A DNA stretch of 64,000 nucleotides from an uncultured Nitrospiraceae bacterium (GTDB lineage: Bacteria; Nitrospirota; Thermodesulfovibrionia; Thermodesulfovibrionales; Dissulfurispiraceae), in the NCBI GenBank assembly GCA_903822005.1, contig CAIJNL010000025.1, positions 1-64,000 on the forward strand, read 5' to 3'. Below are positions 10,478 through 54,309 of the stretch, in pieces. Every line of letters starts with the position of its first letter. Position 1 is the stretch's first letter. The notes below the pieces were generated by a model. That model had not been told where the DNA came from. It saw only the letters and a list, made by a program, of their open reading frames with translations, and did no database searches. The position numbers were made by a program, and so were the translations under genes.

Positions 10478-10984
10478 CTACGGCCCCAGGGAAAGCCTGG
10501 CCTCTATCCCCCACTCCTTCAGCTTCCGCATGGTAAGCTCTATCATCTTCTCAATATTGGCATTAACAATTTCAGACATCTCAAGGCCAAAGCAGAAGTC
10601 GTCTTCACACGGCTGCATGCCGACAAGGCATAATTCGGACGGCATGGCACCTTTCAGTTTCGCTACCGAAAGCAGGTCGGCAAGACCAATGTGATGCACC
10701 GATATCTTCGGAAAAATAATTGCCGGAATCTCATCGTTTTCAAGGATGCCGATATGGCCGGGTTCCCTGCCGAAATTGACCGCATCGACAATCAGTATCC
10801 TCTCAAACTCCTCAAAAAAAGGAAGCAGGTTGAGACCCAGCGTGCCGCCATCGACAATCTCAATTTCAGGTAAAAAGCAATACCGGCCCCTGATCGTGGT
10901 GACAACATGAACACCTATCCGCTCGTCCCTGAGCAGGACATTCCCTAATCCTATCAGCGCAACCTTCGGGCCGTTATTATTCAT
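10478..10984 (-). CDS. HyaD/HupD-type hydrogenase maturation protease
   Basis: LIGLGNVLLRDERIGVHVV, IVDAVNFGREPG; downstream of hydrogenase genes. Confidence 0.85.
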   Translation of the reverse strand: MNNNGPKVALIGLGNVLLRDERIGVHVVTTIRGRYCFLPEIEIVDGGTLGLNLLPFFEEFERILIVDAVNFGREPGHIGILENDEIPAIIFPKISVHHIGLADLLSVAKLKGAMPSELCLVGMQPCEDDFCFGLEMSEIVNANIEKMIELTMRKLKEWGIEARLSLGP

Positions 10985-11618
10985 CCAGGCTCTTATATCC
11001 GCTGAATATCGAGCTTATGAGACCGTTCCTCTCGACAATATCGTTTTCCCACCCTGTGTATACATGAATGATCACGATGACCCAGATCACCCACATAATA
11101 AGATGGTGCATAAGCCGCAGGTTTGCCACGCTCATCAGGCTGAGAGACCAGCCCCCAAAGAGCGTCCATACTGCCCCGCCGCCATGCGCCACCGACAGCA
11201 TCGCAAACCCGGTCGTGATCTCTATAAGATATAGCAGAAAAAGGAAGGTGTACGTGAGTCCGGCCAGCCCGGTATGTCCCGGCGTATACGGAAGGTTCCC
11301 CTGGCAGAAGGCATAGAACTTTGCTGTCTTCCTGATGTTCCTCAGCCTTTCAGCGGTGGTTGGAATGAACTGGCTGAGACGCGCATATCTGTTTCCTGCA
11401 AACCACCAGTACATCCTGAGGATGAGACTCACGGTAAAGACATAGGCGGCTGTAAAATGTATAAACCGCATATGCGCGGTAATGAGTGATTCAGCATCGG
11501 TCGCATGCATGAAGGGAGAACCTATATAGAATCCGGTAACGGACAATATTACTATACTCAACACGCCCAGCCAGTGCGTCAACCTCACAGGAAACTCCCA
11601 GACATATACCGGTTTCAT
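10977..11618 (-). CDS. Ni/Fe-hydrogenase b-type cytochrome subunit
   Basis: VWEFPVRLTHWLGVLSI, four TM, HLIMWVIWVIVIIHVYTGWENDI. Confidence 0.87.
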   Translation of the reverse strand: MKPVYVWEFPVRLTHWLGVLSIVILSVTGFYIGSPFMHATDAESLITAHMRFIHFTAAYVFTVSLILRMYWWFAGNRYARLSQFIPTTAERLRNIRKTAKFYAFCQGNLPYTPGHTGLAGLTYTFLFLLYLIEITTGFAMLSVAHGGGAVWTLFGGWSLSLMSVANLRLMHHLIMWVIWVIVIIHVYTGWENDIVERNGLISSIFSGYKSLDE

Positions 11619-11629
11619 GGCAGCCCCTC

Positions 11630-13327
11630 CTATTGCACTTCGACTTTGAACAGCTCTTTTTTGTCCACGTCAAAGATATGAATGGCACATGCCATGCACG
11701 GATCGAAAGAGTGTATCGTCCTCTGGATTTCTATGGGCTTCATCGGATCAGCCACAGGCGTGCCGATGAGGGCCTGCTCGAACGGGCTCCTCTGTCCTTT
11801 CGGGTCTCTCGGCCCGGCATTCCATGTGGTCGGCACGACTGCCTGGTAATTATCGATCTTGCCGTCTTTAATCACCACATAATGCGCGAGGGCGCCGCGC
11901 GGCGCGTCATGGAAGCCGACGCCTTTGGCCTCTTTCGGCCAGGTGGATGGGTCCCACTTGTCGGTGTTGGCCACACGGTAATCTCCCTTTTTCATGTTCG
12001 CAGCGAGTTCGCCGACCCAGCCTTCAAGCTTCTGCGCGACAAGCAACGTCTCAATCCCGCGCGCGGCGGTCCTGCCGAGTGTCGAGAAGAGCGCGGCCGG
12101 ACCCACGCCCAATTTTTTCAGGACCATGTCCACAGTCTCTTTGACCTGCTTATGCCCCGAAGCATACGCGACAAGACACCTTGCTAGCGGACCGACTTCC
12201 ATTGCCATGTCGTCATATCTCGGGGTTTTGACCCAGCTGTATTTTTTATTCGTGTCCAAATGCTCATAGGGCGGCTTCGGGCCTGTGTAATTGGGGGTCG
12301 TTTCACCGACCCACGGGTGCCTGCTCTTTGCGTCGCCGTCAGAGTATGAGTACCACGAATTATTGATATATTCTGCAATCTTTGCCTGGTCGACCGGATA
12401 TACTTTGCTTAAATCCTTATTTTTAATGATGCCCGCAGGAAAAAAGAATTTCCCGTCTGCATCTGCATGCTCTCCGCATGCAAGGAAGTTGTTAAAGCCG
12501 CCGTATCCTGCCCAATCCTTGTAAAAGGAAGCGACCGCGAGCAGGTCCGGAATATAGACCTTTGAGACAAATTCGAGTGCTTTTTTCGAGACTTCATTCA
12601 GCAGAGCGATACTTCCGGCATTCAGGGCATTCTGGCTGTTGGGGTCAACAGGTATAGACATGCCGCCGACAAGAAAGGTTTGAGGATGCGGGTTCTTGGC
12701 CCCGAGCAGGGCATGGGCGCGGATAATGTCCCTCTGCCAGTCGAGCGCCTCAAGGTAATGCGCTGTGGCCATAAGGTTTGCCTCGGGAGGCAGCCTGTAT
12801 TCCTTGTGCCCCCAGTATCCGTTCGCAAATATGCCTAGCTGTCCGCCGTCGACAAAATCCTTCAGTTTTTTCTGGATCGATTTGAAATGGCCGACCGAAT
12901 TATTGTTCGGCCAGTCCGACAGGGAAGAGGCGAGGGCAGCGGTCTTGACCGGATCAGCCTTGAGCGCGCTCACAATGTCCACCCAGTCGAGGCCGTGGAG
13001 ATGGTAGAAATGTATCACATGATCATGAATGGTCTGGAAAGCCATGATAAGGTCCCTGATCAGGCGTGCATTGTCCGGTATCTGTATCCCAAGGGCGTTT
13101 TCAACGGCCCTTACCGAGGCGATCGAATGCACTGTCGTGCAGACACCGCAAAAGCGAGAGGTAAAGGTCCAGGCATCTCTCGGGTCCCTGCCCTTCAGGA
13201 TGGTTTCGATCCCGCGCCACATTGTTCCTGACGCCCACGCATCCACTATCCTGCCGCCTTCTACCTGCGCCTCTATCCTTAAATGACCTTCTATTCTTGT
13301 TAAAGGATCAACGACTATCTTAGCCAT
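11630..13327 (-). CDS. [NiFe] hydrogenase large subunit
   Basis: MAKIVVDPLTRIEGHLRIE; RFCGVCTTVH and C-terminal DPCMACAIH Ni ligands. Start set at MAKIV (13327), not 13402. Confidence 0.95.
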   Translation of the reverse strand: MAKIVVDPLTRIEGHLRIEAQVEGGRIVDAWASGTMWRGIETILKGRDPRDAWTFTSRFCGVCTTVHSIASVRAVENALGIQIPDNARLIRDLIMAFQTIHDHVIHFYHLHGLDWVDIVSALKADPVKTAALASSLSDWPNNNSVGHFKSIQKKLKDFVDGGQLGIFANGYWGHKEYRLPPEANLMATAHYLEALDWQRDIIRAHALLGAKNPHPQTFLVGGMSIPVDPNSQNALNAGSIALLNEVSKKALEFVSKVYIPDLLAVASFYKDWAGYGGFNNFLACGEHADADGKFFFPAGIIKNKDLSKVYPVDQAKIAEYINNSWYSYSDGDAKSRHPWVGETTPNYTGPKPPYEHLDTNKKYSWVKTPRYDDMAMEVGPLARCLVAYASGHKQVKETVDMVLKKLGVGPAALFSTLGRTAARGIETLLVAQKLEGWVGELAANMKKGDYRVANTDKWDPSTWPKEAKGVGFHDAPRGALAHYVVIKDGKIDNYQAVVPTTWNAGPRDPKGQRSPFEQALIGTPVADPMKPIEIQRTIHSFDPCMACAIHIFDVDKKELFKVEVQ

Positions 13328-14411
13328 TATCTTTGTCCTCCCCCTTCTCCGGATTGCACTTCTTCTTGTTGACATACCGGATCGCCGCATGGGCCGCCAC
13401 ACCGGCTGCTGCTGCCGCTGCTACTCCGAGACCGATCTTGTCGGCAGTCGCCGTGAGGCCCGCGCCCGGAACTTCAGGCAGTCTCTGGTAGAACGGATAC
13501 GCCGTGTCCCAGTTCGAGGGTGCCGCGCACGCAATACATGGATGGCCGGCCTGGACGGGCCAGCTTGTGCCGCCATTCCATTTGATGGTCGGGCAGTTCT
13601 GGTAAGCCATCGGCCCTTTGCAGCCCATTTCATAAAGACACCATCCCTGCCTCGCGCCCTCATCGCCCCACTTCCTGACAAACTGGCCCGCATCGAAATG
13701 CGCGCGCCTTTCGCAGTTGTTGTGAATGAGCTTTCCGAAAGCGAAGCGCGGACGGCCGTTGCCGTCGAGGTCGGGCAGAGTGCCAAAGGTGAGATAATGG
13801 ACTATGGTGGCGGTGAAGTTTTCGGAGTTCATCGGGCATCCCGCGATGTTGACGACCCTGCCCCCGATGACATCTTTTATGCCTGCAGCTCCCGTCGGGT
13901 TTGGACTTGCTGCCGCGACCCCGCCGAAACAGGCGCAATTACCGACCGCTATGTTGACTGCGGCCCCTGCTGAAACCTCTTTAACGATCTGCTCTGCGGA
14001 CCTTCCGGCAACGCAGCAATAAACACCGCCGTCCTTTATAGGGACAGCTCCTTCATAGACCGCTATGTATTTGCCCTTTTTATTCCTGATAATGTCCTGC
14101 AGAGACTTCTCAGCCGCAAACCCTGACGGCGCCATGATCGTCTCGTGATAGTCAAGGGAAATAATGTCGAGGATCAGCTGGCTTAAGGTCGGCTTTGTGG
14201 CCCTGAGCACGGACTCTGAATCACCGGTGCATTCCGAAAAATGCAGCCAGACCACAGACGGCCTCTGCGCCTTTTCAAGCGCCTCGGCTATTCTCGGAAC
14301 TGATGATGAACAGATCCCCAATGTTGCGGCAGCACCCGCGCAGAACTTCAGAAAATCCCTGCGTGAAACGCCCTTGCGCGTCAGGTGCGAATAAATGCTT
14401 TCTCTGTCCAT
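13320..14411 (-). CDS. [NiFe] hydrogenase small subunit, Tat-exported
   Basis: RRDFLKFCAGAAATLG Tat motif; WLHFSECTGDSESVL; CPMNSENFTATI; GCKGPMAYQNCP. Confidence 0.95.
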   Translation of the reverse strand: MDRESIYSHLTRKGVSRRDFLKFCAGAAATLGICSSSVPRIAEALEKAQRPSVVWLHFSECTGDSESVLRATKPTLSQLILDIISLDYHETIMAPSGFAAEKSLQDIIRNKKGKYIAVYEGAVPIKDGGVYCCVAGRSAEQIVKEVSAGAAVNIAVGNCACFGGVAAASPNPTGAAGIKDVIGGRVVNIAGCPMNSENFTATIVHYLTFGTLPDLDGNGRPRFAFGKLIHNNCERRAHFDAGQFVRKWGDEGARQGWCLYEMGCKGPMAYQNCPTIKWNGGTSWPVQAGHPCIACAAPSNWDTAYPFYQRLPEVPGAGLTATADKIGLGVAAAAAAGVAAHAAIRYVNKKKCNPEKGEDKDNG

Positions 14412-15407: not shown

Positions 15408-16751
15408 TTATTTCTGCAGCCAGGCCAGTAAGAAGATGGCCGCTGTAACAGTGCAGGCCCCGCCTATCCTTGTCGAAATCTGCGCAAAAGGCATAAGCAC
15501 CATCCTCTTTGCGGAAGTCAGGATCGCGACATCACCGGTGCCTCCCTGCCCGCTATGACAGCCGGTGACTATAGCGGTTTCAACTGCCCACATGTTCATA
15601 GCCTTGCCGACAAAAAAGCCGGTCGTGATGAGCGTGAGAACAGTCACGAAGATAGTGATTAAATAAGGTATGTTGAATACCGCAACAAGGCTTTCCCATG
15701 GTGTCATGGCAACACCCACGGCCATGAGCAGGGGATAGGTAATACCTACCACAAAAAAGCGATGGATCATATGTGCCCCGTCCTCTACATCCTTGGGCAA
15801 TATTCCGGATACTTTTATCAAAACGGCGCTGAAGAGCATGATGATCGGCGCAGGTATACCGATTAACTTGGCTGTCAAAACACCCACAAAATAGAAGAAG
15901 AGGGCGGTGCAGGCGCCTATCATCATTTTTTCGAGGTCCAGCTCCACTTTTGTCGTATCAAGGAATTTCAGTATGTCTTCAGCCCCTTCCTCGATCTTTA
16001 CCAGGTTGCCGTTTCCATTATATTTCGGATGATTTTCGGCCCATTTGGCCAGAAGCCCGCAGAGCATAATCGCCGATAAGCTGCCGAGCATGACAACCGG
16101 CAGGATCCTGGCGAACTGCTCGTCCTGGGCAACAGCCAGCACTCCCGCGTAACCGATGGACAGGGGGATTGCGCCCTCACCGACTCCGCCTGCCATTATG
16201 GGTACACAGATATAAAAGAACGTTTCATACACACTAAGGCCAAGCAATTGCCCCACAACTATGCCCACTCCCATCGCAGCCAGGGTTCCGCTTAACAGCG
16301 GGACAAACATCTTCATAAACCCTTTTATCAGGACTATCCTGTTCATCCCGAGGATACTGCCTATAATGACCATGGCGATATACAGATATAGAAAATTGGA
16401 CGTTTTCATGAATACAGTGACGCAATCGGTTGCTATCTGTGGCAGCAGCTGATGGGCGACCATAAAAGACGGAAGAAATGTCGCAAATATCGGGGCCCCG
16501 CCCAGGTTCTTGATGACCGGGATGCGCGCTCCGATCTCGGCCAGCAGATACCCGAAAACTATCAGGATGAGAATGGCCCCAAGCATGTCCTTTGGCAGTT
16601 TCCCGGTCAGCATCAGGGCATAGGTCAGGACCAACATCGGAACATAAACCATTACCGGAAGAATGCGGACTTTGTAGTAGAGCACCCGTTTCCAAAGTGG
16701 CAGCTCTTCCTCCTGCCCTTTAGACATTGCTTCTTTTTTTTCTTCGGACAT
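15408..16751 (-). CDS. 2-hydroxycarboxylate transporter family (CitS/CimH-like)
   Basis: Multi-TM; PIMAGGVGEGAIPLSIGYA and TGCHSGQGGTGDVAIL motifs of 2HCT transporters. Confidence 0.85.
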   Translation of the reverse strand: MSEEKKEAMSKGQEEELPLWKRVLYYKVRILPVMVYVPMLVLTYALMLTGKLPKDMLGAILILIVFGYLLAEIGARIPVIKNLGGAPIFATFLPSFMVAHQLLPQIATDCVTVFMKTSNFLYLYIAMVIIGSILGMNRIVLIKGFMKMFVPLLSGTLAAMGVGIVVGQLLGLSVYETFFYICVPIMAGGVGEGAIPLSIGYAGVLAVAQDEQFARILPVVMLGSLSAIMLCGLLAKWAENHPKYNGNGNLVKIEEGAEDILKFLDTTKVELDLEKMMIGACTALFFYFVGVLTAKLIGIPAPIIMLFSAVLIKVSGILPKDVEDGAHMIHRFFVVGITYPLLMAVGVAMTPWESLVAVFNIPYLITIFVTVLTLITTGFFVGKAMNMWAVETAIVTGCHSGQGGTGDVAILTSAKRMVLMPFAQISTRIGGACTVTAAIFLLAWLQK

Positions 16752-16838
16752 AAAATTACCTTCCTTTTTTTAGTATCTTTCTAAAAACAGACCCTGGTCC
16801 GCAGCATTCGAAATCAGGGCCTGTTGAACTGCCTTGAA

Positions 16839-18914
16839 TCAATCCCTGGGCCGCGTCAACATCCTGCAATCGCTGTTCGGCGTTCTCATGTCCATATCAG
16901 TGCCCGACTCGCGGTGGTCAAGATACTCGGCCGCACCGCCAGCCACCCGCCCGAGGACAAAGGTGAGGAACGGCAGGTCGTATGCGCGCTCCATGGTAAT
17001 CTGTCGGTCGACCAGCATGGGCCATGCTATGCCAAGGCAGACCCCCGTCAGCACCGCGTCTATATTTACCGCATGCGACTTGCCTGTCACCCCCTGCTTC
17101 GTCAATTCCCTGGTGAGGCGGTGGTAGAAATCTATGAAAACGTTATAGAGCTTATGCTCGTCCAGGTACTGGCTGACAACGCGTTCACGGGGATCATAGT
17201 TGACCTGGTCCTTGTTGAAAACAGGGTGGCCGAGACAGGGGATCTTTTCCAGGCCCAGTCCCGTTTCTTTTGCGGCAGCCTTGCGTTTTTTATAGTCCGA
17301 CACGAAGTCGTGCACGAGCTTGTCAAGATCGGGCGCTTTTTTCTGGTCATACGGATCGGTCATGCCCGTGTTCCTGAACATTTTGATCAGGAATTTTGCC
17401 GCGGCCTTGCCGTTGCCGCCATGTACTATACCGATAGCGCCAAGAGTGGTCATGATGGCTGTGTTAGGTTCGTTTCCGGCAGAGGCGCTCAGTTTGGCGC
17501 CCTGGGCAGAAATGGATCCCGGGCCGTTAGTGATTGAAGCGGTGAGGCACATCTCGAACAGTTCCGCTTCGAACTCATGCTTTGGATGCACGCCGAGCCA
17601 CGACAGCAGCACAGCCCGGGAGAAAGAACAGCGCTTCATCAGGTTGGGCAGCGAATGGCCGTATATGCGGGGGGTGGCGCCGTCATTTGATGACGCATGC
17701 GACGCGTTGCGCATGGATTGACGGGTAACGGTGCGGCCCAGATCGCCCTTCAGATGCTGGGCAAAGATCTCCTTGTAGGGGCTCGGAATAGTACCCGCCT
17801 GCAGTACCAGTTCCTTAGGCAGTTTGCGGGCAAGCTGGCCCAATTCCACAATCCAAGGGTTGAGCGCCAAAGGCCTTACAGGCGCGAAATCCTGACTGAT
17901 TCCCAACGCGTCCATCATCAGGCGCGCGGCCGGCACCAGGGCATGAAGGGTAGTTACCCGAATACCCAGCTTTTTGCGAGCAATGTTCCGGCGCGCTGCC
18001 TTCTCATCCTTTGGATCAAAAGCCGGGACACCGAAATATGCATCAAAAAGCCTCATCTTGTCGGTCGAAGAAGTGCATGCACCTTCCACGACAGCGCCCG
18101 CATGTCCCAGAGATATGTTCCTGCCCTCGGCAAAGGCCCCCGCTACGTATACGAGCAAGGGCTTTGTAAACTTTATCTTCTGTATATATTCCAGGGCATC
18201 CCTCTCATACGTTCCGCCCGGTTCTACATACAGGATTATCAGCCTGGTATGCTTGTCCTTGTTGGCAAGCGCCAGCAGCTCCTGCAGAGGCGTCAGGATC
18301 AGAGGGTCCTTGCCGGTCGATATTCCGAACGAGATGCCGAGACCGGCCGACTGCATATAGGAAGCTATGGTATTGACCATGTTGCCTGAGTTCGAAATAA
18401 TGGTCGCACTGCCGGGAATGAAAGACTCAGCCGGAGCATCGCCTCCAACTGCGCCCACCCGCACTTTATCGTGAGCGTTGATCATCCCGAGCGTGTTGCA
18501 GCCGATTATATCCATATGAGCGTCGTCGCAAAGATGTTTTAGCTTTGCTGTGACCTCGACGGATACATGCTCTGTGATGACAAAAATCGTTTCGACTGTG
18601 CCCTCTCCGCTGCTGATTACTTCCTTAACATCTCCGTAAACGGCCTCGGGCGGTGAATAGACTATCACCTTGTTCGGCCGCTCCTTTTCGGGCAGCTTCT
18701 TCATCAGGTCCTCGAACTGGCCGAAGACAGGGATGTCGCGTCCCCCGTGGACATTGATCACGTCTCCACCTTTTGCCAGCGCCCACCCTGCCGTTATGTT
18801 GCTGCAGTATTGCTGGGAGATGATGCTTACCTTTGACGATTCGCGTCCGGTGACATTCGACACCGCGACCCGGTCGCCTTTTTTGAGAAGTCCTGAAAGT
18901 GTATTGGTATTCAT
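16839..18914 (-). CDS. aclA: ATP-citrate lyase alpha subunit (SCS-alpha plus citrate synthase-like)
   Basis: NISLGHAGAVVEG phosphohistidine loop; C-terminal citrate-synthase-like domain (ASITNGPGSISAQGAKLSASAGNEPNTAIMTTLGAIG, LGRVAGGAAEYLDHR). Confidence 0.85.
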   Translation of the reverse strand: MNTNTLSGLLKKGDRVAVSNVTGRESSKVSIISQQYCSNITAGWALAKGGDVINVHGGRDIPVFGQFEDLMKKLPEKERPNKVIVYSPPEAVYGDVKEVISSGEGTVETIFVITEHVSVEVTAKLKHLCDDAHMDIIGCNTLGMINAHDKVRVGAVGGDAPAESFIPGSATIISNSGNMVNTIASYMQSAGLGISFGISTGKDPLILTPLQELLALANKDKHTRLIILYVEPGGTYERDALEYIQKIKFTKPLLVYVAGAFAEGRNISLGHAGAVVEGACTSSTDKMRLFDAYFGVPAFDPKDEKAARRNIARKKLGIRVTTLHALVPAARLMMDALGISQDFAPVRPLALNPWIVELGQLARKLPKELVLQAGTIPSPYKEIFAQHLKGDLGRTVTRQSMRNASHASSNDGATPRIYGHSLPNLMKRCSFSRAVLLSWLGVHPKHEFEAELFEMCLTASITNGPGSISAQGAKLSASAGNEPNTAIMTTLGAIGIVHGGNGKAAAKFLIKMFRNTGMTDPYDQKKAPDLDKLVHDFVSDYKKRKAAAKETGLGLEKIPCLGHPVFNKDQVNYDPRERVVSQYLDEHKLYNVFIDFYHRLTRELTKQGVTGKSHAVNIDAVLTGVCLGIAWPMLVDRQITMERAYDLPFLTFVLGRVAGGAAEYLDHRESGTDMDMRTPNSDCRMLTRPRD

Positions 18915-20152
18915 GAGCGTGCTCCTTTTGCCTGCTTGTCACCCTGGCGCACTATGCTTGCCGCATACTCGGCAACAAGAGTGATGGGCGTGTCCGGTCC
19001 GAAGATCACATGCGGGAGGCGCAGATTATCAAGCGTCTTTTTCAGGATTTCTATGCCCTGCACAAGATGCGCGCCTCCCCTTCCGACAACAACAGGGATA
19101 TTCACGGGCCCTTTGGCGTCCACGCATTCCTGAAGGGCGTCGGCAATAGCAGAAAAGGTCTCATCAATCAGCGTGTTATTGGCCTTGCCGCCCAGCAGGA
19201 GCAGGAGCTCGCAGGAATGCAGATGATGATCAAAACATATGGCCGCAGTTTTTTTCATGCGTTCATACGGCGGGTTGCCGCCGAAGTCGGAAAGAAAAAT
19301 GGGGTCTCCTCCAAGCTGCGCCAGGGTCTCGATGATGATGGTGCTTGCGCCGCCCCCGAACAGGACCGGCAGTATCTTCTTGCCTCCGAGGGGCGACACA
19401 TGGGCCTGTCCCTGATGGCTTGATGCGGCCCACGCATTCATCTCGCTCTCGAATTTCGTTTCCACTGTGGGGTACTCAGGCCAGTGCAGACCAAGGTCTT
19501 TCGCCTTGAAGTTGTTTTCATCAAAGGTCGCTTTGAAGTCGCAGACGAATATCTGGCCGCTCTTTGTCACGCGCCACGGATTCACTTCGCAGCTCAGCAT
19601 GCCTGTGGATATGAACATGTCCCACAGGTTGACGAATACCATGGACAGGCGAGAGTTCAGCTTGCCTGTGAGACCGAGCGTGTTGAGGGCCTCAGAGGCC
19701 TGGTACGCATTCAGCCCCTGGAACACATTCAGAGGGACTGTGACCTTATGTTTGTCGGCAATCGATTCTACGTCCATTCCTCCCTTAAGCGATACAGTGA
19801 AGGCAGGGGACAGAGAATGGCTGTTGTACCCGATCGAGGTGTAAATTTCGAGATCGGCAGGCACGCTCTGCACGATATACGCTGCGCGGGGCTGCATGCC
19901 GTTGACTTCAGTAGCCGCCACCTCACGCAATGCCTTCAGTGCTTCGTGTTCTTTTTCTACCTTGATGACAGAACCTGCCTTGCCCCTCTTGCCCGAGAGG
20001 ACGTCGGGTTTAACTATACCAGCGCCCCACTGCTCGAGCTTTTCCTTTAGTTTTGACTGCGACACCGGTTCGGACAAAAACTCCGGTACCGGCAGCTTAT
20101 AGCGCTGGGCAAGCTGTTCCAGAAATGTCAGCTCACCTATTCGTGGATTCAT
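18911..20152 (-). CDS. aclB: ATP-citrate lyase beta subunit (SCS-beta-like ATP-grasp)
   Basis: WGAGIVKPDVLSGKRGKAGSV, INPWRVTKSGQIFVCDFKATFDENN-like region, 4-bp overlap with aclA. Confidence 0.83.
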   Translation of the reverse strand: MNPRIGELTFLEQLAQRYKLPVPEFLSEPVSQSKLKEKLEQWGAGIVKPDVLSGKRGKAGSVIKVEKEHEALKALREVAATEVNGMQPRAAYIVQSVPADLEIYTSIGYNSHSLSPAFTVSLKGGMDVESIADKHKVTVPLNVFQGLNAYQASEALNTLGLTGKLNSRLSMVFVNLWDMFISTGMLSCEVNPWRVTKSGQIFVCDFKATFDENNFKAKDLGLHWPEYPTVETKFESEMNAWAASSHQGQAHVSPLGGKKILPVLFGGGASTIIIETLAQLGGDPIFLSDFGGNPPYERMKKTAAICFDHHLHSCELLLLLGGKANNTLIDETFSAIADALQECVDAKGPVNIPVVVGRGGAHLVQGIEILKKTLDNLRLPHVIFGPDTPITLVAEYAASIVRQGDKQAKGARS

Positions 20153-20241
20153 ACAGCCTCCTTTTTGCGGCCCCAGCCACACATCAATTAATTAACAGAT
20201 ATAACCTTAATGTTCATTATCTGCAGGAATTGACAATAACT

Positions 20242-21195
20242 CTATCCCGTTCCCGGCAGTCCTTTTTTGAAATCAGACAGTTTGGCATACATACTTTTTA
20301 CCGCCTCGGCGGATTTCGCGAAAGCGGCCTTTTCAGGATCGTTCAGTTTGAATTCGATTATCTTCATTACCCCGTTCCTGCCGAGAATGACCGGCACACC
20401 GTTGTATACATCAGTCACACCGTATTCACCAGTGAGATAAGCCGAGCAGGGCAGCAGCCTTTTTTCATCAATGACAATGGACTTGATCATATGGAATATT
20501 GCAGCGGCAGGCGCGTAATATGCGCTTCCGCTCTTGAGCAAGGCGACTATTTCGGCCCCTCCCTGTTTGGTCCGCTGCACAAGTTGCTCAACCCTCTCTG
20601 GGGTAAACATCTCGGTAACGGAAACCCCCTTTACCGTCGTAAACCTGGGCATCAGCACCATCCCGTCGCCATGACCGCCCAGGACCAGCGCCTCAACGTC
20701 CCTCGGCGATACCCCGGCCTCCCAGGCAACAAAGGTCCTGAAGCGGGCCGAGTCGAGTATGCCGCCCATGCCGATCACGCGGTTCTTCTTGAAGCCCGAT
20801 ACCTGCAGGCTCAACTGGGCCATGACATCGACCGGGTTGGTGACTATGATAAAGATCGCATTTGGCGAGAGGGCAGCAGTCCGCTCGACAATATCCGCCA
20901 CGATCCTCGCGTTCGCAAGCAGGAGATCGTCCCTGCTCATGTCAGGCTTTCTCGCAAGCCCGGCGGTCACGACGATAATATCCGACTCGGCCGTGTCTTC
21001 AAAGTTATTAGTGCCCAGTATCGAGGCCGAAGATATCCAGAGCGGTCCCGCCTCGGAAATGTCCAGGGCCTTGCCCTGCGGCACACCCTCGGCAATGTCA
21101 AAGAGAACAACATCCGCAAGCTCTGCCTGTATCATCAGATAAGCAAGTGACGAGCCGACGTTGCCCGCGCCGATAACCGAAACTCTTGTCTGCAT
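20242..21195 (-). CDS. mdh: Malate dehydrogenase (lactate/malate dehydrogenase family)
   Basis: VSVIGAGNVGSSLAYLM, TAGLARKPDMSRDDLLLANA, VTNPVDVM, LGGHGDGMV. Confidence 0.92.
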   Translation of the reverse strand: MQTRVSVIGAGNVGSSLAYLMIQAELADVVLFDIAEGVPQGKALDISEAGPLWISSASILGTNNFEDTAESDIIVVTAGLARKPDMSRDDLLLANARIVADIVERTAALSPNAIFIIVTNPVDVMAQLSLQVSGFKKNRVIGMGGILDSARFRTFVAWEAGVSPRDVEALVLGGHGDGMVLMPRFTTVKGVSVTEMFTPERVEQLVQRTKQGGAEIVALLKSGSAYYAPAAAIFHMIKSIVIDEKRLLPCSAYLTGEYGVTDVYNGVPVILGRNGVMKIIEFKLNDPEKAAFAKSAEAVKSMYAKLSDFKKGLPGTG

Positions 21196-21270
21196 CCTGC
21201 ACCTCCGGGTCCAGTTCTTATGATCACCTAGTTTAAAGACAGACAAGGCAATAAATCACCCTAATAACAA

Positions 21271-21286
21271 AATAATCGGTATTATT
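21271..21286. promoter_or_regulatory. AT-rich near-palindrome in the mdh/sensor-kinase divergent region
   Basis: AATAAT-CGGT-ATTATT with neighbouring ATTATTATTTAG. Confidence 0.4.
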
Positions 21287-21458
21287 ATTTAGTCCGATTT
21301 TGACGATATTAACAGCATGGGGGAGGCCTTGCAGTTTTGCATTTTGGAAACGGCAGTCATTAAAATAAACAACCGCTGTTAGAAGCGTGCAGGAAAGATT
21401 TTACCGGATTTCCAAACCCTTGCCTGATGGAGAGATTATCTGTGGGAGTGTCGGAAAC

Positions 21459-23033
21459 ATGACGTTAAGAAGCAAGATCAATTGGCTGGTATCGATAAAT
21501 ATCATCTTCGTGCTTGTCTTGCTGTTGTCCTCCGTGTCATATATGATCATCGAAAGCACATTCAGGGAGACCGGCGAGCGGGCGCTTGTGGTTGCAAAGA
21601 CCGTGGCAAGCCTGCCTCAGATCGTACAGGCATTTGATAAAAAAAATCCGTCGCAGTCGATCCAGCCTTTAGCGGAAGGCATCAGGAAGAATACCGGGGC
21701 CGAGTTTATTGTTGTCAGCAACATGGACCTGATCCGTTACAGCCACCCGAACCCGGACAATATCGGCAAGCGCATGGTTGGCGAGGACAATGACGCGGTA
21801 TTGAAGGGGCAGGACAGCATCACGAGCGCCAAAGGCACCCTCGGCTATTCTCTCAGGGGGAAAGCCCCTGTTATTGACAGTAATAATAATCAGATCGGGG
21901 TGGTATCAACAGGCTTTCTTGTCCGAAACATCTGGAGCAGTCTTTACAGCATGCTGCTAAAGGTTATAGCAATCGGGATCATAGCGCTTCTCTTTGGCCT
22001 TGTCGGCGCTTATTTCCTGTCCATGCATATCAAAAAACAGATCTTCAATATGGAACCTCACGAAATTGCCTTTGCGACGCAGGAGCAGGCCGCTATCCTT
22101 GAGGCCATACGCGAAGGTATCATCGCGGTCAACAGCAGCGGATGCATTGTAAGCTGTAACCGCGAGGCCAAGAAAATGCTCGGCATGGAGGAGGTAGACC
22201 TGATCGGTAAGGAACTATCTTCGGTGTTTCCTTCGACCCGTCTGCCAGAGGTCCTCAAAGACGGCATCCCCCAGTACGACCAGTCGATGATCGTCGGCAA
22301 CACCCTTGTCATTACCAACAGGGTGCCCGTTTTCCTTGGCGGCAGGGTCATCGGTGCGGTCGCGACTTTCCGCGACAAATTGCAGCTCGACCATATGGAC
22401 GAACGCCTTGCCGATATCGGGCGGTATGTGGATACCCTGCGCAGCCAGAGACATGAATTCATGAACAAGCTCCACCTGATTTCGGGCCTGATCCAGATGT
22501 CCGAATATGAAACCGCAAAGGAAGTCATCGAAGAGGTAAACGAGGAACATCATAACGCGATCCAGTACTATATGGCGAGGGTGCGGGATTCGGCCATAGT
22601 CGGAATCCTCGTCGGCAAGACGCATCTGGCCGGGGAACTCGGGATCAAGCTGTCCATACTGCCTGAATCCTATATCTCTGAACGCTGCCCGCATCGCGAG
22701 ATCGTGGTAACCATATTGGGCAATACTATTGAGAATGCCTTTGAAGCAATAAGGCTGTCTGATGTTAAAATACCATATCCGGCTGTAACGGTCTTTATGA
22801 AAGAGGAAGCCGGTCACCTGATCATCCGTATACGCGACAACGGGCCGGGTGTTGATCCGTCGGTAAAGAAACATCTCTTTGAGGACGGGGCAACGACCAA
22901 AGGAAAAGGCAGGGGGTTCGGTCTCTGGCTGATTTCGCGGCTGATTTTCAATGTGGGCGGCACAGTAACATGCGACAGCTCTTCGGAAGGGACTCTGATG
23001 AGCATCAGCCTGCCCACCGGGAGGGGCAATTAA
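21459..23033 (+). CDS. CitA/DcuS-family sensor histidine kinase
   Basis: N-terminal TM, sensor domain (SVSYMIIESTFRETGERALVVAKTVASLPQI), PAS, LRSQRHEFMNKLHLISGLIQMSEY H-box, GPGVDPSVKKHLFEDGATTKGKGRGFGLWL ATPase. Confidence 0.9.
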   Translation: MTLRSKINWLVSINIIFVLVLLLSSVSYMIIESTFRETGERALVVAKTVASLPQIVQAFDKKNPSQSIQPLAEGIRKNTGAEFIVVSNMDLIRYSHPNPDNIGKRMVGEDNDAVLKGQDSITSAKGTLGYSLRGKAPVIDSNNNQIGVVSTGFLVRNIWSSLYSMLLKVIAIGIIALLFGLVGAYFLSMHIKKQIFNMEPHEIAFATQEQAAILEAIREGIIAVNSSGCIVSCNREAKKMLGMEEVDLIGKELSSVFPSTRLPEVLKDGIPQYDQSMIVGNTLVITNRVPVFLGGRVIGAVATFRDKLQLDHMDERLADIGRYVDTLRSQRHEFMNKLHLISGLIQMSEYETAKEVIEEVNEEHHNAIQYYMARVRDSAIVGILVGKTHLAGELGIKLSILPESYISERCPHREIVVTILGNTIENAFEAIRLSDVKIPYPAVTVFMKEEAGHLIIRIRDNGPGVDPSVKKHLFEDGATTKGKGRGFGLWLISRLIFNVGGTVTCDSSSEGTLMSISLPTGRGN

Positions 23034-23736
23034 TGAAACGCTCAAAACTGCGGGTAATGGTCGTTGATGATGATTTTATGATCGCGAAGCTGCATGGCAA
23101 ATTTGTCGATCACCAGGAAGGCTACGAACTCCTGGGCATTGCCCACAATTATGAGCAGACCCTCTCCCGCATCAGGGAACTCCCGCCTGATCTGATAATC
23201 CTTGACGTCTACCTGCCCGACCGCTCCGGGATAGAGGTTTTGCGTTCCATCAGGTCCGAAAAGATCCCATGCGATATCATCCTGATAACCGCGGCCAAAG
23301 AGATAGAGATTATAGAAGAGGCATTCAGGCTTGGTATATTCGACTACCTGATCAAACCCTTTGATCTGGACCTGCTGAAGAATGCCCTCGAAAAATACCG
23401 CCTGTTCAGAAGTCATATGAAGTCTCCCGTCAATCCTAACCAGCAATTCGTTGACGAGCTTAAAAAAGCCGTGCTGCAAAATCTCATGCAGTCCATGATG
23501 TGCAAAAAGGTATCGACATGCGCACGCTCGACAAAATAAGGCAGTACCTGATAAAAGACGGGGATTACCGCAGCGCGGCCCAGATTGCGGCTTCTACTGG
23601 GGTCAGCCGCTCGACCGCGCGGGCTTATCTCGACTATATGCTCGAACAGGGGATCGCCGAGGAACTGCTGCAATACGGCACGGTCGGGCGTCCGCAGAGG
23701 CTCTTCAGGGCAAAGAAAGAAACCGCCGGAAAATAG
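23033..23736 (+). pseudogene. CitB/DcuR-type response regulator split by a -1 frameshift near 23502-23508
   Basis: Receiver in frame 1 (VMVVDDDFMIAKLHGKFV..DVYLPDRSGIEVL) to stop 23539; HTH in -1 frame (KGIDMRTLDKIRQYL..VSRSTARAYLDYML..YGTVGRPQRLFR) to 23736; break at TGCAAAAAGG. Confidence 0.75.
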
Positions 23737-45444: not shown

Positions 45445-45498
45445 TTGACAATGCGTCAAAAATTTCATATAATGGAACAAGGTTTCGTAATATGGAAC
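45445..45498 (+). promoter_or_regulatory. Consensus sigma70 promoter with two tandem IclR-like operator half-repeats
   Basis: TTGACA (45445-45450), 17 bp, TATAAT (45468-45473); TTTCATATAATGGAAC (45463-45478) and TTTCGTAATATGGAAC (45483-45498). Confidence 0.75.
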
Positions 45499-46298
45499 GC
45501 AATAACATAGCGCAAAAACCGTCAAATCTGGTGCAAAGCGTCGAGCGCGTGGCCAATATCCTGGAGCTTGTAGGCAGGAATTCACAGGGTACGGGCATAC
45601 GGGACGTTTCACTCATCTTAAATCTCCCTAAAGGCACAGTCCACCGGCTACTTTCGACACTAGTATATATGGGATATGTCCGCCAGGATTCCGCCACAAA
45701 GAACTACTTTCTCGGACTTAAGCTGCTTGAACTCGGCAACCTTGTAACCAGTCAGCTGGACCAGATAAAGATAGCTGAACCTGTACTCAGGAGGCTTGCC
45801 GAAGATTCAGGCGAGACCGTCCATATGGCGATCCTCGAACAGAACGAGATTGTCTATATAAACAAGATAGAGAAAGAGATAAATGCAGGCGGACTGAAGA
45901 TGTCCTCGCGCGTGGGCTCGCGCACCCCGGCCAACAGCTGCGCCGTGGGCAAGGTCCTGCTTGCCTATTCTTCAGAAGATGAAGTCGAAAGCGTGATCCA
46001 AGCTACTGGTCTGCCGCCGCGCACGCCCAATACCATCACAGACCCCGCGCAACTGAAAGAGCATCTGGCTGCGGTCAGGAAGCAGGAATATGCTGTTGAT
46101 GATGAAGAGAATGAGCTGGGTATCCGCTGCGTAGCGGCCCCGGTCTTTGGTGATAAAGGGAAGGTGGTATCCGCAATCAGCGCTTCAGGGCCTGCCTTCC
46201 GGGTGACTAAAAGGATGATACAGGACACATTGAGGAAAGAGGTCATGAGAGCTGCCTCTGAAATTTCCGTGCTGCTTGGGTATTCGGGGGTAAAGTAA
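45492..46298 (+). CDS. IclR/KdgR-family transcriptional regulator
   Basis: SVERVANILELVGRNSQGTGIRDVSLILNLPKGTVHRLLSTL; GETVHMAILEQNEIVYINKIE. Confidence 0.9.
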   Translation: MERNNIAQKPSNLVQSVERVANILELVGRNSQGTGIRDVSLILNLPKGTVHRLLSTLVYMGYVRQDSATKNYFLGLKLLELGNLVTSQLDQIKIAEPVLRRLAEDSGETVHMAILEQNEIVYINKIEKEINAGGLKMSSRVGSRTPANSCAVGKVLLAYSSEDEVESVIQATGLPPRTPNTITDPAQLKEHLAAVRKQEYAVDDEENELGIRCVAAPVFGDKGKVVSAISASGPAFRVTKRMIQDTLRKEVMRAASEISVLLGYSGVK

Positions 46299-46325
46299 AA
46301 ACGGTCTAACAGGGAGAGGTGGATT

Positions 46326-47264
46326 ATGAGAATTCTTAGGGTAATGCTTGTTGCCGTATGTCTCGTTTTTTTCGTTGCCGGTCAGTCTCTTGCTGTTGAT
46401 GCAGCAGCCAAAAAGATCACCTTCACCAAGTATCCCAATCTGAAGCTCGGTTTCCTTTCGGCAAGTTTCGGCCCTGCCGGAATCGGCCCGTCGCTCGAAA
46501 ATGCCAAAATGCTTATCGATTTCGGCAAGGAGCAGGGTTTTTCCTGGATGGAGCTGAGGGACGCCAGCGCAGCGCTGTCTGAAGCAGACATCAAGGCAAT
46601 AAGCAAATATGCTGCATCAAAAAAGATCGAGATAGTCTATGCGTCCAACCGCGGCCCGCTTGATGCAGATTACTGGCAGGTGCTTGCGAATTCAAAGAAA
46701 AACGCCGGTTATTTCAAGAAGGGGACAAGGACAGTCCGTTCTGCAGACTCAGGAGATGAATTCGGCAAAGACCCTAAAAAGATGGCATGGACTGAAGACG
46801 AATTTAAAAAGGCCGTTGCAGTTCAGAACAAAGCGGCAAAAGAGGTCAAGGCCGCCGGACTGCAGCTCGTTGTCGAAGACGCTTTCCTGCCGGTTTTGGG
46901 AGCATACGGCTACGAGGCTTTTGCTGACGCTACAGACAAGGCTGTTGGATTACAGCTCGATACTGCCAACATGTTCTGCGTATCACGGGTGCGTACCGAT
47001 CCAAAGGAAGCTGAACGCGTTATCAGGAAGATCGCTCCAAGGCTTTATTACACCCATTTGAAGGCCTCGGTAAATGGCGTATGCCAGCCGGTGCTTACTG
47101 ACAGCGAACTCGACTTTGGTGTTATTTTCGAGATCCTCGCGAAGAACAAGAAAAATTATATCGGGATCGAACTCGTCGGGGCAAAGACAGTCGAAGAGAC
47201 AAAGGCGAATTATATCAAGAGCCTCGAGTATCTGAAGAACAAAGGATATATAACCATTAAATGA
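46326..47264 (+). CDS. Exported sugar phosphate isomerase/epimerase-like TIM-barrel protein
   Basis: Signal peptide MRILRVMLVAVCLVFFVAGQSLA; GFSWMELRDASAALSEADIKAI, LQLDTANMF, LYYTHLKAS. Confidence 0.72.
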   Translation: MRILRVMLVAVCLVFFVAGQSLAVDAAAKKITFTKYPNLKLGFLSASFGPAGIGPSLENAKMLIDFGKEQGFSWMELRDASAALSEADIKAISKYAASKKIEIVYASNRGPLDADYWQVLANSKKNAGYFKKGTRTVRSADSGDEFGKDPKKMAWTEDEFKKAVAVQNKAAKEVKAAGLQLVVEDAFLPVLGAYGYEAFADATDKAVGLQLDTANMFCVSRVRTDPKEAERVIRKIAPRLYYTHLKASVNGVCQPVLTDSELDFGVIFEILAKNKKNYIGIELVGAKTVEETKANYIKSLEYLKNKGYITIK

Positions 47265-47296
47265 TGATGCAATCAATTGTTCGAGGAGGTATGAGA

Positions 47297-48286
47297 ATGA
47301 AAAAGCTGTTGATCGCTGTTTTAAGCCTGGCCGTTGCCGTCTGCGTCTTTGGCATGGCCGGCAATGCAGCTGCCATTGACCTGAAGATGGGCCATTTCGC
47401 GGCTGACACTCACGCGGGCAACCTGGCAAGCAAGATGTTTGCGGAAGCGGTAGCAAAGAGGACAAACGGACAGGTAAAGGTAATTATCTATCCGAATAAT
47501 GCGCTCGGTTCACCGCCCGAGGTGCTGGAGCAGAACATCCTGGGCGCTGTTGACATGAGCCTTCCCACACAGGGACAGCTCGGAAAGTACTCACCCAAAT
47601 TCAATTGCGTTATGCTTCCCTTTGTATTTAAAAATTATGCGCAGGCAGACAAGGTCCTTGACGGGCCGTTCCTCAAGTGGGCGGTCGGAGACCTGGACAA
47701 GGCAGGACTGGTATTCCTGTCAAACTGGGAGTGGGGGTTCAGAAACCTTACGAATAATGTGCGCCCCGTCAATAAGCCGGACGACGTAAAGGGGCTGAAG
47801 ATACGCACCCCACCTGAACTGCCGACGCAGGCAGCCATGGAAGCCCTCGGGGCAGTTGTGGCCACGATCGGTTTCAATGAACTCCAGATGGCGCTGAGCC
47901 AGGGAGTCGTGGACGGGCAGGAAAACCCGATCTCGGTCATTTACTCGAACAAGCTTTACGAACATCAGAAATATCTTGCCATGACAGGCCATAACTACAA
48001 CACCATGGTCCATGTCATCAGCAAGAAAACATGGAATAAACTGACGCCGGAGCAGAGGACCATAATCAAGGAAGAGAGCGTAAAGGCAGGCAACTGGATG
48101 AGAAAGACCCTCAGGGCAGCAGAGGCTGATCAGATCAAACAGCTGAAGAAACTGGGGATGCAGGTTACTTATCCTGACGTCTCAAAGTTCAAGGCGCTAA
48201 TGGGTCCCGCCTATGAAAGGATGAAGGCCACGGCCGGCGAAGCTAACATCAAGGAATTCGTGAAGATGGTGGATGCTGTAAAGTGA
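47297..48286 (+). CDS. TRAP transporter substrate-binding protein DctP family
   Basis: Signal peptide; KMGHFAADTHAGNLASKMFAEAVAKRTNGQVKVIIYPNNALGSPPEVLEQ; GVVDGQENPISVI. Confidence 0.92.
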   Translation: MKKLLIAVLSLAVAVCVFGMAGNAAAIDLKMGHFAADTHAGNLASKMFAEAVAKRTNGQVKVIIYPNNALGSPPEVLEQNILGAVDMSLPTQGQLGKYSPKFNCVMLPFVFKNYAQADKVLDGPFLKWAVGDLDKAGLVFLSNWEWGFRNLTNNVRPVNKPDDVKGLKIRTPPELPTQAAMEALGAVVATIGFNELQMALSQGVVDGQENPISVIYSNKLYEHQKYLAMTGHNYNTMVHVISKKTWNKLTPEQRTIIKEESVKAGNWMRKTLRAAEADQIKQLKKLGMQVTYPDVSKFKALMGPAYERMKATAGEANIKEFVKMVDAVK

Positions 48287-48308
48287 TGTAACAATGGGCG
48301 GATAAGTA

Positions 48309-48357
48309 AATCCGGGGTGACTGCCGGCATATATCCATGCCGGAGCCACCCCGGATT
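48309..48357 (+). promoter_or_regulatory. Strong intercistronic stem-loop between dctP- and dctM-like genes
   Basis: AATCCGGGGTG / CACCCCGGATT and inner CCGGCAT / ATGCCGG, no long T-run. Confidence 0.7.
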
Positions 48358-48461
48358 CTCTGCCCCGGATCAAGAAGCAGGATATAAAAGCGTAGCCCCG
48401 TGTCTCCCTTGGCAGATAACGGATGCGTCTTGAAAAGGGAAGAAATCCAAGGAGCACTAAT

Positions 48462-49745
48462 ATGCTTACTTTTCTTGTTTTTGCCGTTCTCCTGGTGCTG
48501 GTCATGAGCAATCTGCCCATCGCGGTGGCCCTGGGCCTCACAGCCACGACGTTCTTCACCGCCCTGGGCGATAGCGATTTCCTGACTATGCTGCCTCAAA
48601 GAATGTATGCTTCTACTACGAGCTTTACCCTTCTTGCGATACCTTTCTTTATTCTCGCGGGAAACCTCATGAACAGCGGCGGCGTCACCGACCGGATCTT
48701 CCGTTTTGCCAAAGCACTATTCGGTCATTTCTCGGGCGGTCTCGGGCATGTTTGTGTTATTGCCAACGTCATCTTCTCGGGCATGTCCGGCTCGGCCATA
48801 GCTGATGCGGCAGGGCTGGGCCAGGTGCTTTACAAGGCCATGGCTGACAACGGTTTTGGCAAGCGTTTTTCTGCTGCCATAGTGGCGGCCGCAGCAACCA
48901 TCGGTCCTGTAATACCGCCAAGCATTCCCTTTGTTGTCTATGGCGCCCTGACAGGGGTGTCTGTCAGCGCTCTCTTTCTGGCAGGATTCATTCCAGGGAT
49001 AATGATGGCCATAGCCATGATGATAGCAATATATATTCTGGCACGGGTCCGCAAGCTGCCGAAGCAGCCCAGGGCTGATTTAAAAGAAGTGCTTGCGAGT
49101 ATCAAGGGCGCTTTTCTGGCCCTCATGACCCCGGTTATTATTATCGGCGGCATTCTCACCGGTATTTTTACCCCGACGGAAGCTGCTGTAGTCGCTTCTC
49201 TCTATGCCCTGTTTCTGGGGTTTCTGTACAAGGATCTCACGCTGAAAGTCCTGCCGAAAATCTTCTGGACATCAATCAAGCAGTCCATTGCCCTTATGTT
49301 CATTATCGCCGCTGCCGGTTTTTTTGGCTGGCTTTCCATATACCATAAGATACCCGATGAAATAATCATGACCCTGACCAATATGGCTGCTACGCCTTCT
49401 GCGATACTTGCCATGATTATTGTGGTGGTCCTGATCCTGGCATTGACCCTTGAAGGCAACGCAATCTTCATACTTACCATACCGATCTTCTTCCCCATAT
49501 GCCAGCGCTTCGGAATAGACCCGGTCAACTTCGGCGTAGTTATGACCCTGCTGATCATGATAGGGAACCTGATGCCGCCTGTCGGAATGTGCCTTTACGC
49601 CGTGTCCTGCTTCAGCAAGGTCACTCTCGGAGAAATATCGAGAGAGGTATGGCCTTATTCTGTCGGAATCCTGATTGTGACTATCATAATTGCGTATGTT
49701 CCGCAGATCGCGCTGTTTATCCCGAATCTTTTGGGCGGCAAGTGA
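48462..49745 (+). CDS. TRAP transporter large permease DctM family
   Basis: LTFLVFAVLLVLVMSNLPIAVALGL, FFILAGNLMNSGGVTDRIF, GMSGSAIADAAGLG. Confidence 0.93.
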   Translation: MLTFLVFAVLLVLVMSNLPIAVALGLTATTFFTALGDSDFLTMLPQRMYASTTSFTLLAIPFFILAGNLMNSGGVTDRIFRFAKALFGHFSGGLGHVCVIANVIFSGMSGSAIADAAGLGQVLYKAMADNGFGKRFSAAIVAAAATIGPVIPPSIPFVVYGALTGVSVSALFLAGFIPGIMMAIAMMIAIYILARVRKLPKQPRADLKEVLASIKGAFLALMTPVIIIGGILTGIFTPTEAAVVASLYALFLGFLYKDLTLKVLPKIFWTSIKQSIALMFIIAAAGFFGWLSIYHKIPDEIIMTLTNMAATPSAILAMIIVVVLILALTLEGNAIFILTIPIFFPICQRFGIDPVNFGVVMTLLIMIGNLMPPVGMCLYAVSCFSKVTLGEISREVWPYSVGILIVTIIIAYVPQIALFIPNLLGGK

Positions 49746-49776
49746 GCAGGCCGGATAAACTGGAAAGGAGATGTCC

Positions 49777-50310
49777 ATGAACATTTTAAAACTGATAGAT
49801 GCGGGCATTCTGAATTTGCTGAAGACCATAACAATAACCTGTTTCGTTCTGCTCACACTGCTGGTAACGGCAAACGTCATGGTGCGCTTTATCCCGATAG
49901 TTTCTCTGCACTGGTTTGATGAGATAATTGAACTACTGGTGGCCTATCTCGTCTTTTACGGGTCAGCGGCCCTCTGGATATCAAGGGAGCATTTCAGTGT
50001 CGGCGACTGGATAGAGAAACGCCTTGCCCCCAGACCGCGGCATGCGTACCGCCTGGTCATTGAAATCCTGGCCCTGGCTTTTGCTGTGATCTTCTTTTAT
50101 TATTCCTGGCAATTGACCGATGCTGCTGAGGATGTCACGAACGTCTTCGCGATACCAAAATGGATACTCTATTCATGCCTGCCAGCTTCAGGCGGCATCA
50201 TGATTATTTATTCCATCCGGAATGTCGTATCGGAAATTATCGGCATTGTAAAGGACGGAGATGGCGTTGGCGGCAAAGAGGTTTGTGAAGTGGTGCAGGA
50301 CAGGCGATAG
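49777..50310 (+). CDS. TRAP transporter small permease DctQ family
   Basis: Four TM; WFDEIIELLVAYLVFYGSAALWISREHFSVGDWI. Confidence 0.87.
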   Translation: MNILKLIDAGILNLLKTITITCFVLLTLLVTANVMVRFIPIVSLHWFDEIIELLVAYLVFYGSAALWISREHFSVGDWIEKRLAPRPRHAYRLVIEILALAFAVIFFYYSWQLTDAAEDVTNVFAIPKWILYSCLPASGGIMIIYSIRNVVSEIIGIVKDGDGVGGKEVCEVVQDRR

Positions 50311-50357
50311 GCGGCTGATTCAGGCTGCCGGAGGATAGTCAGGTTAAAGGAGAAAAT

Positions 50358-51188: not shown

Positions 51189-51208
51189 CCGATACCAGGA
51201 AGGTGAAT

Positions 51209-51970: not shown

Positions 51971-52009
51971 AAGGCAGCAGCCCGAATAACTGAATCAGGA
52001 GGGAGCGAC

Positions 52010-53044: not shown

Positions 53045-53105
53045 AATGCGTTTGCATTACTGCTGAAACGGGATGAGAATATGCCGAAACTGACCGGAGG
53101 TTTAT

Positions 53106-53786: not shown

Positions 53787-53820
53787 ATCAGGAACGCATA
53801 TTAAAAGTTTTAGATATTAA

Positions 53821-54309
<489 letters not shown>

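Follow-up and report, generated by a model that had tools for sequence, protein, structure and literature searches.

Gene content and arrangement

The window analysed here, the whole stretch of 64,000 nucleotides from contig CAIJNL010000025.1 of an uncultured Nitrospiraceae bacterium (assembly GCA_903822005.1), carries a module in which the genes for a 2-hydroxycarboxylate transporter (2HCT), the two subunits of an ATP-citrate lyase (ACL)-like enzyme (aclA and aclB) and malate dehydrogenase (mdh) lie on the minus strand, divergent from a sensor histidine kinase and its response regulator (Table 1). Open reading frames and domain matches bear out this layout, which was the one described in the original prediction. 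The order of transcription expected on the minus strand is mdh-aclB-aclA-2HCT, aclB and aclA share 4 nt at their junction, and co-transcription of the four genes would be consistent with this arrangement. It is suggested that the module probably serves the catabolic use of citrate, which would be sensed by the CitA-like kinase, imported by the 2HCT protein and cleaved to acetyl-CoA and oxaloacetate. The wiring is real and unusual, the enzyme type is known but poorly characterised, and nothing relevant was found when the literature was searched for a link between ACL and 2HCT.

Table 1. Features of the module, in positions of the window
Feature	Position	Strand	Basis of assignment
2HCT transporter, citrate:cation symporter-like, 447 aa	15408-16751	-	PF03390, 467 bits
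aclA, 691 aa	16839-18914	-	SucD-like citryl-CoA synthetase (CCS)-alpha (residues 1-300) fused to one citryl-CoA lyase (CCL)/citrate-synthase-like domain (~415-690)
aclB, 413 aa	18911-20152	-	ATP-grasp and ACL citrate-binding domain, CCS-beta-like
mdh, malate dehydrogenase	20242-21195	-	TIGR01763, over cut-off
Divergent intergenic region, 257 bp	21199-21455		41.6% GC; carries inverted repeat 21267-21293
CitA/DcuS-family sensor histidine kinase	21459-23033	+	sCache_3_2, PAS, SPOB_a, HATPase
Response regulator, receiver domain alone in frame	23033-23539	+	PF00072; best full families DpiA/DcuR
DpiA-like helix-turn-helix (HTH) of the regulator, 75 aa, -1 frame	23509-23736	+	PF20714, 34 bits (cut-off 27)

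Architecture and relatives of the ATP-citrate lyase

Both subunits find their best matches in the Protein Data Bank (PDB) in the citryl-CoA synthetase of Hydrogenobacter, ahead of any ACL (E 6e-36 and 4e-38, the latter between AclB and the large subunit, 6hxq_B). The parts of a CCS module (ATP-grasp, citrate-binding domain and phospho-histidine) are all present, with PF08442 and PF16114 in AclB (the latter at 51 bits against a cut-off of 26.8) and PF13607 over cut-off, and AclA shows a weak match to citryl-CoA lyase in its C-terminal part (NCBIfam PRK06224). The best fold matches of the AlphaFold2 model of AclA (mean pLDDT 77, pTM 0.59) are full-length ACLs and ACL holoenzymes (Foldseek E 3e-25, alignment of ~700 columns), and the whole-chain root-mean-square deviation from ACLs is large (24-30 Å) because the placement of the domains in the model is uncertain. 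The matches to CCS and CCL, taken together with the ACL fold, point to a fused, two-subunit ACL-like enzyme, the AclA of which appears nearer in sequence to citryl-CoA synthetase and citryl-CoA lyase than to classical (type I) ACL. In Hydrogenobacter these two enzymes (6hxq, 6hxp) are encoded by separate genes, whereas in the window they are fused.

A genome scan with AclA as a single protein recovered no relatives, and an alignment query was needed. The alignment-based scan gave 80 loci, of which 45 (L057-L101) encode a compact AclA, mostly of ~690-710 aa with one CCL domain, in Planctomycetota, Spirochaetota, Kiritimatiellota and Elusimicrobiota; in the remainder (L102-L136), which come from Nitrospina, Ignavibacteria, Thiotrichaceae and Deltaproteobacteria among others, complete proteins have ~905 aa. 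Identity between the AclA of the window and the compact loci is 49-78% over AclA and 48-78% over the CCL query region, and the closest homologue is from an Elusimicrobia metagenome-assembled genome (MAG) (78/83% aa). A tree of AclB splits the compact and the ~905-aa groups with full support and joins the window at 100/100 to L057, from an Elusimicrobia MAG, and L058, from an uncultured bacterium. By length, domain content and position in this tree, AclAB is placed in a compact, single-CCL clade that is sister to the ~905-aa type II ACL of the Nitrospina kind; the earlier description of AclA as type II-like was thus right in seeing a close, divergent ACL and wrong as to the exact class.

Type II ACL was described from tubeworm symbionts (PMC3522073) and also, though not under this name, in the Nitrospina genome paper (PMC3578206). 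As judged from the fetched loci, which include Nitrospina MAGs and do not include the tubeworm-symbiont sequences, it is homologous to the AclAB of the window in both subunits (~27-42% aa) and shares its invariant active-site set, but has two tandem citrate-synthase-like domains where the AclA of the window has one. Fused enzymes of Planctomycetes, intermediate between CCS/CCL and type II ACL, were described by Thiel et al. 2017 (PMC5459899), so that the compact clade as such was known before: those 'intermediate' ACLs of Planctomycetes and Spirochaetes (e.g. Planctomycetes DG20) have the same architecture and come from the same phyla, and the compact loci are very probably that group, an equation that is made by description, the DG20 sequence lying outside the comparison. 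In that paper the fused CCS-CCL ACLs are discussed for the reductive tricarboxylic acid (TCA) cycle only (PMC5459899).

The compact loci differ from the window in their surroundings, as none of the 45 fetched has 2HCT, CitA or mdh beside acl. Their neighbours in other phyla are mostly not conserved; isocitrate dehydrogenase (IDH), aldehyde dehydrogenase (by eye like delta-1-pyrroline-5-carboxylate dehydrogenase) and GntR-type regulators recur. Compact ACL lies beside isocitrate dehydrogenase and/or aldehyde dehydrogenase in Kiritimatiellota/Verrucomicrobiota and Spirochaetota (L063:4244-7563, L070:4762-5973, L082 and L094), which suggests a reductive route from glutamate or 2-oxoglutarate to citrate there. 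Given that these two dehydrogenases recur without 2HCT or CitA, a biosynthetic or reductive use of ACL is plausible in the compact clade of other phyla.

A related protein was recovered from 29 plasmid records, and in the six loci read it has ~900 aa and two tandem citrate-synthase-like domains, to the second of which the single domain of the window is closer. These ACL-like genes (among them L051:7144-9855, L053:7114-9819, L054:6958-9732, L055:7030-9825 and L056:7030-9732) are, where annotated, called only 'CoA-binding protein' or hypothetical. Genes for organic-acid uptake or PrpF-like proteins lie within 10 kb of the tandem ACL in 4/6 loci, a sample that is anecdotal and lacks a matched control: a 2HCT gene in L054, TcuC and DctA in L055, a TctA-like membrane protein (by eye) and DctA in L056, and, in L052, a PrpF/oxalomesaconate-tautomerase-like gene together with an ABC transporter, with no obvious tricarboxylate transporter near the tandem ACL of L051 or L053. 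The plasmids on which tandem ACL has tricarboxylate transporters nearby are proteobacterial, and by analogy they would lend independent support to a link between such enzymes and citrate uptake.

Conservation of the active site

Conservation in AclA was read over 46 compact and 31 tandem-set rows, the window being counted in each, and in AclB over 72 sequences. The fused C-terminal CCL domain has the catalytic aspartate (D619) together with active-site histidines and arginines, and H271 (the phospho-histidine), H498, H563, R576, D619, R656 and R677 are conserved in 45-46/46 compact and 31/31 tandem-set rows; H271 lies within GHAGA and is kept in 45 of the compact rows, the remaining one being a gap. 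N325, T327 and R358 of AclB, the putative citrate-binding residues, are invariant (72/72) and are here taken to be the counterparts of the citrate-binding residues of human ACLY, just as the equivalences of the AclA residues to citrate synthase and ACLY are in part assumed. The C-terminus of AclA singled out in the original prediction is quoted there exactly, and most residues of its motif (R656, D666, H667, D675, R677, T678) are invariant in divergent ACLs.

At the position of the histidine of the ACLY 'ADHGP' motif (like H238 of citrate synthase), where ACLY and CCL have His, AclA has Asn463, as do all 46 compact and all 31 tandem-set rows. On this alignment the asparagine is a trait of the whole family and no defect of the gene in the window, and the substrate or mechanism of AclAB may differ from those of ACL and CCL.

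Sensor kinase, regulator and intergenic region

The sensor domain of the kinase, a single Cache domain, aligns best with CitA of Geobacillus (8bgb), and the alignment to this structure and to a CitA fusion (6lnp) shows that the ligand signature of CitA is kept as R-x-x-H (R93, H96) and RGK (R133, K135), where DcuS has RVF. The predicted ligand residues thus mark the kinase as CitA-type rather than DcuS-type. The regulator has the receiver and the HTH of a CitB/DpiA protein in different frames: the first frame stops after the receiver, and the change falls at TGC AAA AAG (~23501-23509; AAAAAG at ~23504-23509). As assembled, the regulator is broken or depends on a -1 slip at this site, and a sequencing error, a pseudogene or a programmed -1 frameshift would each account for what is seen. 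The exact point at which the frame switches coincides with an in-frame C AAA AAG heptamer (23498-23512). Of the kinase and regulator pair first proposed, a CitA/DcuS-type kinase and DpiA-like domains were found, and an intact regulator was not.

The AT-rich dyad AATAATCGGTATTATT (21271-21286), which had been noticed between the divergent genes, does exist within the longer inverted repeat and occurs once in the window. Its regulatory value did not hold up: an equally good 10-nt inverted repeat arises in 36/300 dinucleotide shuffles of the same intergenic region, and the dyad was dropped as an operator because a repeat that lies within local chance carries no weight as evidence for one.

Distribution and genomic setting

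The fused AclA is absent from the 60 genomes of relatives up to the same order, and in a sample of 396 genomes across the phylum both this ACL and the 2HCT family occur in this genome only, the ACL matches elsewhere being confined to the N-terminal SucD/CCS part; a kinase of such similarity is present in 1/31 genomes of the family. The flanking hydrogenase and mdh are common to relatives, at 67-71% nucleotide identity. Given that no other genome of the phylum sample has the module while its flanks are native, it looks acquired, and the simplest reading of these comparisons is that acl, 2HCT and citAB were gained, perhaps jointly, beside native mdh and hydrogenase genes. In GC and GC3, acl is like its neighbours, and GC holds no further signal of origin. 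Contamination is unlikely, as the 148-kb contig that carries the module also has hydrogenase and mdh genes that match relatives in the family, and as acl does not stand out from its neighbours in GC and GC3. The hydrogenase, a NiFe enzyme of small and large subunit with cytochrome b (10977-14411), lies directly downstream of the module, and the region from 10478 adds a maturation protease-like open reading frame.

The checks proposed with the original prediction, for citDEF and for 2-oxoglutarate:ferredoxin oxidoreductase (KOR) and fumarate reductase (FRD), found all three or candidates for them. Contig C42, outside the window, carries dctA-citD-citE-citF-citC, a complete citrate lyase operon (CitE below its equivalog cut-off), and close to it prpF, a citX-citG fusion and the gene for a PrpR-like sigma-54 regulator (L159:6203-18732). 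The original prediction had named, as a finding that would count against it, a citrate lyase operon under the same regulator; the regulator at citDEF is PrpR-like, which as far as can be read from the DNA is a different one. With citDEF present, the notion of ACL standing in for an absent citrate lyase was dropped. Aconitase, IDH, SucD, SucC, a 2-oxoacid:ferredoxin oxidoreductase and tcuCBA lie on contig C20, and succinate dehydrogenase (SDH)/FRD and malic enzyme on contig C25; gene order is the ground for placing the C20 oxidoreductase as KOR, and the assignments of KOR versus pyruvate:ferredoxin oxidoreductase (POR) and of FRD versus SDH follow gene order and family only. On C20 the tricarballylate genes tcuABC adjoin the block of 2-oxoacid:ferredoxin oxidoreductase, SucCD, IDH and aconitase (L168:1592-14366). 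The genome further holds one conventional citrate synthase and carbon monoxide dehydrogenase/acetyl-CoA synthase (CODH/ACS), and the mdh of the module is its only copy over the TIGR01763 cut-off, with close homologues in relatives of the family. Because citDEF, a KOR-type TCA cycle and CODH/ACS are present, ACL would be dispensable both for cleaving citrate and for autotrophy.

Discussion

The substrate, direction and regulation proposed for the module would be as follows. Extracellular citrate would bind the CitA-like kinase, which would phosphorylate the DpiA/CitB-like regulator, and the phosphorylated regulator would induce mdh-aclB-aclA-2HCT. Citrate imported by the 2HCT symporter would then be converted by AclB/AclA, through a phosphorylated histidine and citryl-CoA, to acetyl-CoA and oxaloacetate (ATP to ADP and Pi), with malate dehydrogenase disposing of the oxaloacetate as malate. 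External citrate is indicated because both a sensor and an importer are in the module; the closest solved structure to the transporter is CitS (5a1s, E 1.8e-45), and its substrate is likely, not certain, to be citrate. ACL spends ATP and yields acetyl-CoA, and CitDEF yields acetate. Keeping both systems would make sense because a retained CoA ester avoids reactivation when a cell has both a TCA cycle and CODH/ACS: the acetyl-CoA from ACL would stay activated and could enter biosynthesis, the TCA cycle or CODH/ACS, where CitDEF would free acetate. The citrate fermentation operons governed by CitAB (citCDEFXG with CitS/CitT of Klebsiella and E. coli) likewise combine an enzyme that cleaves citrate with a CitA-like sensor, a DpiA/CitB-like regulator and a transporter of the citrate type, but cleave with CitDEF to acetate whereas the window would do so with ACL to acetyl-CoA, its CitDEF lying elsewhere; the cluster in the window also includes mdh and has no oxaloacetate decarboxylase.

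Several observations weigh against this account. The transporter falls short of both models closer to citrate, TIGR00783 'ccs' (448.6 bits against a cut-off of 549) and CitS (224.5 against 600), and because these cut-offs are missed malate or another 2-hydroxycarboxylate could be its substrate. To this are added the split frame of the regulator, the invariant asparagine of AclA, the second and complete route of citrate cleavage on C42 and the lack of 2HCT or CitA beside acl in the compact loci; the shuffle test of inverted repeats left no credible operator in the divergent intergenic region, and a sole, housekeeping-type mdh in the operon fits poorly with expression that depends purely on citrate. 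The inducible use of imported citrate, as first put forward, is therefore backed by context (the CitA signature, the CitS-like transporter, a module unique in the phylum sample, plasmid ACLs near transporters), while the integrity of the regulator is in doubt.

One alternative is that ACL works in a reductive TCA cycle, cleaving internal citrate during growth on H2 and CO2, with malate dehydrogenase reducing oxaloacetate, the NiFe hydrogenase giving electrons and 2HCT and CitA supplying C4- or tricarboxylates. The KOR-type complex, SucCD, IDH and aconitase of C20, SDH/FRD and malic enzyme of C25, the adjoining mdh and the hydrogenase with its cytochrome b would all suit such a cycle, to which related type II ACLs have been assigned (PMC3522073, PMC3578206, PMC5459899). 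This scenario is nevertheless unlikely, given that CODH/ACS is an independent route of CO2 fixation that makes ACL dispensable for autotrophy, that a conventional citrate synthase is present, that the hydrogenase is conserved also in relatives without ACL and that the cycle has no need for a citrate-type sensor and transporter. It would also be possible for the lyase to have a different imported substrate, a tricarboxylate or 2-hydroxy acid such as 2-methylcitrate or homocitrate, which would explain both the change of His to Asn throughout the compact and tandem sets and the PrpF-like neighbours of plasmid ACL, and TcuABC and PrpF are encoded in the same genome as the module. This is improbable, as AclB retains the citrate-binding domain and residues of ACL, the kinase bears the CitA signature and the Nitrospina homologue is inferred to cleave citrate in an autotroph (PMC3578206). 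Finally, the module may be decaying or not regulated as it appears, with the regulator a pseudogene and the operon constitutive or silent, a reading that can be combined with any of the others. The different frames of receiver and HTH speak for it; the HTH frame is otherwise intact, as are the frames of the remaining genes, the active sites of acl are conserved, and the shift falls at an A5 run, which is prone to sequencing error and at which the in-frame C AAA AAG could also slip, all of which make decay quite unlikely. Catabolic use of sensed and imported citrate is thus retained as the probable role of the module.

ACL genes serve as a diagnostic marker of autotrophy by the reductive TCA cycle (PMC9802188, PMC3522073). 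An ACL tied to a citrate-type sensor and importer, alongside CODH/ACS and a separate CitDEF, cautions against reading ACL as autotrophy, and the module offers a testable case of ATP-dependent citrate catabolism that keeps acetyl-CoA; the invariant asparagine in place of histidine poses an enzymological question for the entire divergent ACL group. It is conceivable, if rather doubtful, that the His-to-Asn superfamily of compact and tandem ACLs is a widespread catabolic, ATP-dependent tricarboxylate lyase, found repeatedly beside tricarboxylate transporters and sensors and not primarily concerned with CO2 fixation, in which case reading a reductive TCA cycle from such ACLs in metagenomes would often be wrong. 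Elsewhere in the window, at 45492-54309, genes for an IclR-type regulator, a TRAP transporter, a dehydrogenase, a sugar kinase and aldolase-like proteins resemble, by eye, a cluster for sugar-acid catabolism.

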